Shown: positions 2,398-62,942 of the stretch, in pieces
Layout: every line of letters starts with the position of its first letter
Numbering within the stretch: the first letter of the stretch is position 1
NCBI GenBank assembly: GCA_039944855.1
Contig: JBDUXZ010000005.1
Coordinates: forward strand, 186,001 to 250,000
Reading direction: 5' to 3'
From: Rhodothermales bacterium
GTDB taxonomy: Bacteria > Bacteroidota > Rhodothermia > Rhodothermales > JANQRZ01
Length of the DNA: 64,000 nt
The notes under the pieces: generated by a model
The model's input: only the letters and a program-made list of their open reading frames with translations
What the model was told of the DNA's origin: nothing
The model's database searches: none
Program-made: the position numbers and the translations under genes

Positions 2398-2625
2398 AGC
2401 GGTCCATGCTCTGTTGAGAAGCTCGAATGGGTGTCATCCTGAGCAGAGGCCGCAGGCCGGAGTCGAAGAACCCGTAGGGACTCGTCCCGAAGGCTCGGCG
2501 AAGCCCATCTTTCCGGGGAAACCCGCAACGGACTGTTGAAACCGTGCCCGCAGAGATCCCTCGGCTCCACTCCGTTCCGCTCGGGATGACAAAGTGGAGA
2601 GCTTCTCAACAGAGCAAGCGGTCCA
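2398..2625. mobile_element. MITE-like element with 18-bp inverted ends and 9-bp target duplication
   Basis: A 210-base non-coding element at 2407-2616. Its ends are perfect 18-base inverted repeats: TGCTCTGTTGAGAAGCTC at 2407-2424 and the reverse complement at 2599-2616. It is flanked by identical 9-base direct repeats AGCGGTCCA at 2398-2406 and 2617-2625, which look like a target-site duplication. An inner pair GTCATCCTGAGC / GCTCGGGATGAC lies inside the ends. There is no transposase, so any movement would need an enzyme supplied in trans. Two decayed relatives occur near 54.5 kb and 62.8 kb. Confidence 0.8.
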
Positions 2626-53319: not shown

Positions 53320-54417
53320 GTGTCCCTCACGCTCACCTCTCAGGATCAGAAGCGGATCGCGCGCGCCTCCCGCGTGATCGCCGCGCCGTTCGACTTCGAC
53401 ACGCCCGACGCGTGGATGGAGGCGGCGGCGACGAGCCTTCGCGAAGTCGTTGGGGCTTCCACGGCGAGCGTCAGCATCCCCTCCGACTCCGGGCTCCGGT
53501 TGATGTACCCCGATTTCTCCGACGAGGTCGCCGACCAGTACCGGAGCTTCTATCCCCTTCTGGAGCGCGTCGGGACGTTCCGGCGGTCGGCTCGGAGCGG
53601 CGTCCTTACGCGGCGCGAGATTTTCGGCCAGCATTACGAGGCGATGCAGCAGTCGGCTTACGTCCAGGAGTTTATGCACGGCATCAAGTGCTACGACTCG
53701 ATCACGATCGGTGTCCGGTGGAGCCCCCGAGGCACGACGCCGGGCGACGTCCTTCAGGTTTTGCTCAATACGGACGATCCGCAGCGCCCGTTCGACGCAG
53801 CACAGGCGGCGACGGCGCGGCTGCTCCACCCGGCGCTGGAGGCGGGGGTCTCGTCCTACCAACGCCTGCGGGCGGCGCACGCCCAACTCGGTGCGCTCAT
53901 CGACGCCAGCGGGGCGGCCTGCGCCGTGTTCTCGCTTGGCGGCCAGTTCCTCCACGGCACTCCGGCCCTCAACCGTACGCTCGCTCGGGAGCCCCACCGG
54001 GACCGCTTGATGGCGCAGGCTCGGCACCTCGCCCGTGCATTCACCCGCAACCGGGACTCCCTAGCCGTCGCACCGTCTGAGCCCGGCACGTTCGTCGGAG
54101 CGCGAGGCCCGTATCGCCTCGTACCTACGCGCGTCAAGCACCTCGGACCTCGCCCGTCGATTCTCCTCACCGTCACTCCACCGCGTGCCCGATCACCCCT
54201 TCCCACCGAGGGCGACGTACAGGAGCAGTTCGGCCTCACACCCCGGCAGGCCGAGGTCGCGCTTCTCCTAGCCGCCCGACACTCGAACAAGGAGATCGCG
54301 GCGGCGCTCGGCATCAGCATCCACACCGCACGACACCACGTCGAGCACGTGCTGAGCCGACTCGACGCGGCCCGCAGCGACGTGCCGGACGTCGTGGGCC
54401 GCATCGACGTGGCCTGA
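53320..54417 (+). CDS. LuxR-family transcriptional regulator
   Basis: A 365-residue regulator. The C-terminal HTH (about 300-350) reads FGLTPRQAEVALLLAARHSNKEIAAALGISIHTARHHVEHVLSRL, a clear LuxR/GerE domain. The N-terminal 280 residues have a GAF/PAS-like look (ATSLREVVGASTASVSIP near residue 30) but match no ligand-binding family I recognise. The GTG start at 53320 lies 7 bases after the hydrolase stop, suggesting co-transcription. A decayed MITE-like element begins directly after the stop. Its signal is unknown. Confidence 0.82.
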   Translation: MSLTLTSQDQKRIARASRVIAAPFDFDTPDAWMEAAATSLREVVGASTASVSIPSDSGLRLMYPDFSDEVADQYRSFYPLLERVGTFRRSARSGVLTRREIFGQHYEAMQQSAYVQEFMHGIKCYDSITIGVRWSPRGTTPGDVLQVLLNTDDPQRPFDAAQAATARLLHPALEAGVSSYQRLRAAHAQLGALIDASGAACAVFSLGGQFLHGTPALNRTLAREPHRDRLMAQARHLARAFTRNRDSLAVAPSEPGTFVGARGPYRLVPTRVKHLGPRPSILLTVTPPRARSPLPTEGDVQEQFGLTPRQAEVALLLAARHSNKEIAAALGISIHTARHHVEHVLSRLDAARSDVPDVVGRIDVA

Positions 54418-54578
54418 GCCTCATGCGTTCTGTTGCAACGCTTTCTTCTTCGTCATCCTGAGCTTGTCGAAGGATCTCTCCTCGGCACCGCATTGCTCAT
54501 CAGAGATCCCTCGACTGCGCTCGGGATGACAGTTTGAGGCGGCTCTGCTGAGCTTCTCAACAGGGAGCAAGCCTCCTG
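54417..54578. mobile_element. Decayed MITE-like element
   Basis: A relative of the element at 2407-2616. The right end carries GAGCTTCTCAACAGGGAGCA; the left end is degraded. Flanking direct repeats AGCCTCATG (54417-54425) and AGCCTCCTG (54570-54578) match at 8 of 9 bases. The core (54452-54530) begins GTCATCCTGAGC and ends CTCGGGATGAC, and is nearly identical over about 60 bases to the core at 62741-62829. The rest of the 54418-54724 gap holds no gene. Confidence 0.6.
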
Positions 54579-62708: not shown

Positions 62709-62862
62709 TTGCTCTGTCTTAAAGCTATCTACTCTTCCGTGTCATCCTGAGCGCAGCGCAGCGAAGTCGAAGGATCTTTCGGGGCACCGCGTTGCTCATC
62801 AGAGATCCCTCGGCTGCGCTCGGGATGACACGGAGGAACGGAACCACTGAGCTTCACCCGAG
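62709..62862. mobile_element. Decayed MITE-like element
   Basis: The core at 62741-62829 starts GTCATCCTGAGCG and ends CTCGGGATGAC. It is almost identical to the 54452-54530 core over about 60 bases (GAAGGATCT...GGCACCGC.TTGCTCATCAG...). Degraded ends TTGCTCTGTC on the left and GAGCTTCACCCGAGC on the right resemble the ends of the intact copy at 2407. No target duplication is obvious. It is followed by short imperfect repeats of ACCACGGAC at 62869-62935. Confidence 0.55.
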
Positions 62863-62942
62863 CCCAACAACCACGGACCAACAACCAGCGACCACGGACC
62901 ACGAACCACGGACTAACAACCAGTGACTACGGACTAATCCTC

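Follow-up and report, generated by a model that had tools for sequence, protein, structure and literature searches.

The 210-bp non-coding element at 2407-2616 of the window (the whole 64,000-nucleotide stretch of Rhodothermales DNA analysed here) is very probably a non-autonomous IS5-family (IS903-like) MITE, the partner of which is an insertion sequence of the type found in a related genus, and the interior of which is a captured hairpin. As a kind, such a MITE is ordinary and known, but the hairpin in its middle also occurs in elements with quite different ends. That the element is MITE-like had been proposed from the letters alone, and the proposal is supported by the many copies, by the 9-bp duplications and by the discovery of an insertion sequence that shares its ends. 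The element lies within the 50-1000 bp size range of bacterial MITEs (PMC4596501) and has no transposase gene, and it combines inverted ends and a fixed 9-bp duplication with dispersed copies and ends held in common with an insertion sequence.

The ends are perfect inverted repeats of 18 bp (18/18), separated by 174 bp of interior and bordered on the outside by identical 9-bp repeats (Table 1), exactly as the sequence-only reading had described them. It was also right that no transposase lies inside: none of the open reading frames of the window provides one within these 210 bp. The window contains two exact matches to the 18-mer, which are the element's own ends, and one with three mismatches (54550-54567); in shuffled windows, up to three mismatches being allowed, the mean was 0.04 matches and none reached three. 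With an Arr-like gene (1845-2276, + strand) on one side and an ABC1/UbiB-like kinase gene on the other (start codon ATG, position 2759, + strand), both identified by Pfam, the element is intergenic. The open reading frame directly upstream (143 aa) matches Pfam Arr-ms (rifampin ADP-ribosyltransferase) at 151.7 bits (7.1e-45), and no orthologue of the neighbouring ABC1 kinase was found in genomes G001 and G002 (the second of these belongs to the same GTDB family as the host, but to another genus).

Table 1. Coordinates in the window of the element, its parts and two further copies
Feature	Position	Strand	Remarks
Left 9-bp target-site duplication AGCGGTCCA	2398-2406	.	Sequence; 9/9 against the right copy
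Left terminal inverted repeat TGCTCTGTTGAGAAGCTC	2407-2424	+	Sequence; matches either end of the G002 insertion sequence at 17/18
Hairpin core GTCATCCTGAGC...GCTCGGGATGAC, dispersed palindromic repeat class	2433-2590	+	
Right terminal inverted repeat GAGCTTCTCAACAGAGCA, exact inverse of the left	2599-2616	-	Sequence
Right 9-bp target-site duplication AGCGGTCCA	2617-2625	.	Sequence; 9/9 against the left copy
Decayed second copy, core type II	54426-54569	+	Duplication AGCCTCATG/AGCCTCCTG at 54417-54425 and 54570-54578 (8/9)
Third copy, more decayed, core type II	62710-62864 (outer limits approximate)	+	Left end matches at about 13/18; deletion in the right end

A search of the genome for the 18-base end, which had been recommended as a check, proved productive. 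The host assembly (G000, which contains the window; 4.6 Mb in 41 contigs) gave 28 matches at up to two mismatches, against none for the reversed control, and has 14 two-ended copies on 10 contigs (141, 173, 178, 195 and 210 bp), with decayed copies besides. When 17 insertions were aligned (the 14 from G000 and three from sister genomes, one of which has its right border 1 bp short), mean flank identity was 0.73 at a duplication length of 9 bp, as against 0.25-0.32 at 6, 7, 8, 10, 11 and 12 bp. In G000 the duplication is 9/9 in four copies (the window copy and those of contigs C40, C2 and C20, the last at 257 kb) and 8/9 in three, and the copy at 608 kb of C5 has a perfect 8-bp repeat at its flanks; throughout the MITE family the duplication length is uniform at 9 bp. 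Few members of the family are preserved as well as the window copy. The idea that it was inserted recently survives in part: recent insertion is plausible, because ends and duplication are free of mutation, but with a closest sister copy of only 92% identity there was no fresh burst. Beyond these genomes, the exact 18-mer occurred three times in genome_contigs (257 Gb), in unrelated bacteria and against a chance estimate of about seven; viral_contigs gave no exact match, and the element found no counterpart in plasmids.

Where might a transposase for such a family be encoded? Among 60 related genomes, matches to the 18-mer with at most one mismatch were confined to the host's own genome and G002. 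In G002, positions 1307-2342 of contig C66 form a 1036-bp insertion sequence, the ends of which (TGCTCTGTTGAGAAGCTT and TGCTCTGTTGAGAAGCTA) are 17/18 identical to those of the MITE, so that another recommended check, the hunt for an insertion sequence sharing the ends, had a positive outcome. It is flanked on both sides by a perfect (9/9) duplication, ACGTCCCGA, and encodes an intact 315-aa DDE transposase frame with its stop codon within the right end. The transposase scores 60.8 bits against PF01609 (DDE_Tnp_1; cut-off 23), and its best NCBIfam model is NF033579, IS5_2 (E 3.7e-38), at 131.7 bits; since this falls below the curated equivalog cut-off of 140, it is better placed on an outlying branch of the IS5 family, as 'IS903-like', than as a firm member. 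Of the matches listed, the nearest plasmid-borne relatives show 28-38% identity, several of them carrying an IS5 family annotation. One of the latter, in Paludisphaera borealis (33% identical), has the ends TGCTCTGTAGAAAACC with a perfect 9-bp duplication, and the element of a Roseomonas relative has ends of the TGCTTTGTTGAAACCC type; in genome_contigs, no relatives of the G002 transposase were confirmed.

The G002 insertion sequence (at L066 1137-2577, contig C66) splits a tandem two-domain gene, the halves of which flank it and overlap by the duplicated codons. A homologue of the split gene in the window's own genome (C23:23733-24143) is uninterrupted across the junction, at 55-59% identity, and represents, at the protein level, an empty site for the G002 insertion sequence, not for the MITE of the window.

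Like the IS903 group of the IS5 family, the G002 element is about 1.05 kb long, makes 9-bp duplications, has an IS5-type DDE_Tnp_1 transposase and carries a TGTTGA-type end core. IS903-group ends are of the GGC type at the start, whereas those of the MITE and the G002 element start TGCTCTGTTGA; the IS5_2 score and the modest identity of the plasmid-borne relatives likewise set the G002 element apart. We nevertheless call it IS5-family and IS903-like because of the annotation, ends and 9-bp duplications of its relatives, together with the length and duplications of the IS903-group elements of Paracoccus (about 1050 bp, with 15-21-bp ends and 9-bp duplications; PMC3281130).

The suggestion that a full-length element may be present elsewhere in the same genome was not borne out in this assembly, and it is in the related genus of G002 that one is found. 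No match to the G002 transposase was obtained in G000, although the same query recovered G002 at 1.4e-213; the PF13737 profile found nothing in G000, but this negative carries no weight, the control genomes being likewise without any match. The host's own DDE_Tnp_1 transposases were considered as parents of the MITE and rejected: those tested have the ends GAGACTGTTTGGGGAA (with a TCA duplication) and, probably, GAAGCTGTTTGGG, and a third, at the starts of contigs C14 and C29, is without the MITE's ends. Both of these contigs (L062 and L061, respectively, 1-340) open in the same PF01609 transposase gene, ending TTGATTGTCCACACGACCTA, the break in the assembly here being due to a multi-copy insertion sequence. 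Since no contig terminates at any of the 28 end matches, a collapsed multi-copy parent of the MITE is unlikely; an unassembled single-copy parent with TGCTCTGTTGAGAAG ends is possible in this strain. As G000 has no autonomous copy, mobilization was either historical or dependent on an unassembled element.

Apart from the ends, the MITE and the G002 insertion sequence have in common only chance matches of 9-11 bases. The interior is instead a palindrome, GTCATCC[T/C]GAGC...GCTC[A/G]GGATGAC, which is dispersed in its own right: the core 12-mer has about 101 half-sites in the host genome, against one for the reversed control, and most of the cores sampled there, outside the end-based collection, are without IS5-type ends. 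In the phylum its occurrence is patchy: single genomes reach 153, 99, 47, 45, 33 and 30 half-sites, whereas most of 148 stay near background. A literature search with the hairpin string found no relevant paper.

Under IS5-type ends there are cores of type I (121 bp, plus longer forms) and of type II (79 bp), which in the C40 copy contains 4.3 repeats of a 23-bp unit. In G001 and G002 the same ends enclose a GTCATCTCGACC form of the core, and at L075 in G002 a quite different one, GTCATCCCGGACCCC...GCGGGGATGAC, with an 8/9 duplication (CTAACGTCT/CTAACGGCT). In the host genome, the GTCATCTCGACC core recurs within elements bearing the unrelated ends CTAGGTACACGACAAAA. These make up a second MITE-like family, at L132 (C5:327 kb), L147 (C33:0.3 kb) and L133 (C5:349 kb), in which L132 and L147 have perfect 9-bp duplications (GTCCCGACG and GGCCGCGAG, respectively) and L133 one of 7/9. 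A single copy of the same core kind, L145 (C24:103 kb), has the ends CGCCCTATTGCAAA/CGCTCTCTTGCAAA and a 7/9 duplication. Four further host loci (L041, L043, L049 and L052), in which the flanks GTAGTGCTCCAACCGTCCCA and CGTGACCGCCTCACC recur, were rejected as a second MITE family, being without clear inverted ends or duplication. We also draw attention to a submodule, AACCC..GAAGGCTCGGCGAAGCCC, that replaces G within GAAGGATCT at 2470-2506 of the window and in L049, L052, L053 and L099, among others; the cores that carry it have differing flanks and come from two genera, and this distribution suggests exchange between cores.

Because one end type holds several cores (at least three) and one core class occurs under unrelated ends (at least two securely defined types), ends and cores have been re-paired. 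The interior of the window element is no shrunken insertion sequence, but most likely a captured member of the dispersed GTCATCC...GGATGAC hairpin repeat.

The core arms and the ends differ in how well they are conserved. Among 11 type-I copies, divergence from the consensus was 0.8% in the 12-bp core arms, 8.3% in the IS5-type ends, 18% in the spacers and 11% in the middle (Fisher values overstate the significance, because type-I copies have common ancestry); when two copies with indels in their ends were excluded, the arms stood at 0.5% and the ends at 6.2%. The arms are thus about ten times less variable among copies than the transposon ends, and because the copies were mostly gathered through their ends, a procedure that should favour end conservation, the bias of collection works against this result. 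Constraint on the arms, gene conversion with the genome-wide pool and recent capture from a uniform source are each compatible with the pattern. While the modularity of the interior is documented, its cause is an inference; at somewhat less than even probability, the hairpin may be a conserved functional module, captured repeatedly by unrelated pairs of insertion sequence ends to give 'interchangeable-coat' MITEs.

Might the hairpin itself, as a REP- or BIME-like repeat, be the mobile or functional unit, and the IS5-type ends a secondary coat on some copies? The abundance of cores, most of them without such ends, speaks for this, as do the presence of the same core class in L132 and L147 with unrelated ends and duplications of their own, and the low divergence of the arms. 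Like REP/BIME-type palindromes, the cores are many, short, dispersed and not tied to one transposon family. Here, however, they sit in TIR-bounded units with duplications, and in the window family the duplications lie directly outside the IS5-type ends, so that the inserted unit was the IS5-type unit; moreover, neither a duplication nor a transposase is linked here to the core alone. We regard this explanation as unlikely. Still less probable, indeed very improbable, is a defective remnant, in which a full insertion sequence was internally deleted and the interior is what was left over: the near identity of the MITE ends to those of the G002 element would agree with it, but the lack of further similarity to that element and the membership of the interior in a separate dispersed repeat class do not. 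A chance palindrome or transcription terminator, for which there is only the strong fold (-104 kcal/mol, z -6.2, as expected of any element with nested inverted repeats), can be virtually dismissed in view of the multi-copy family with duplications, the location of the single terminator-like site with a T run outside the element (2715-2731), and the want of any Rfam match or terminator within it. An RNA function was rejected as well: besides having no Rfam match and no internal terminator, the element shows no promoter-like site, and covariation does not support the fold (term +1.32, with double changes at three pairs).

For MITEs of this make-up there is a precedent in Porphyromonas gingivalis, where BrickBuilt and MITE464/PgRS have IS5-type ends around a non-coding interior, and where several MITE types combine similar IS5-type ends with unrelated interiors (PMC4596501). 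BrickBuilt contains 23-nt tandem repeats, has irregular duplications and is accompanied by matching insertion sequences in the same genomes (PMC4596501). The repeats have a parallel in the 23-bp unit of the C40 copy, whereas the uniform 9-bp duplications, the end sequences and the location of the partner in another genus are unlike the P. gingivalis elements.

How would the MITE have moved? A full-length insertion sequence like that of G002, with the same 18-bp ends, would provide a DDE transposase in trans; this enzyme would bind the MITE ends, cut out or copy the 210-bp unit and join it to staggered target cuts, from which the 9-bp duplications would arise. Judged from the sequences, mobilization in trans by a G002-type element is the probable route. 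The core was presumably captured into the MITE, and the host genome probably lost, or never kept, the partner insertion sequence.

The IS5-type MITE family of this lineage gains a named autonomous partner from a related genus. The family also offers a test case for the origin of MITE interiors, in which the interior is not the leftover of a parent but a dispersed hairpin of separate identity that recurs beneath several unrelated transposon ends. Should the core arms prove to be so little diverged, something other than transposition would be maintaining them.
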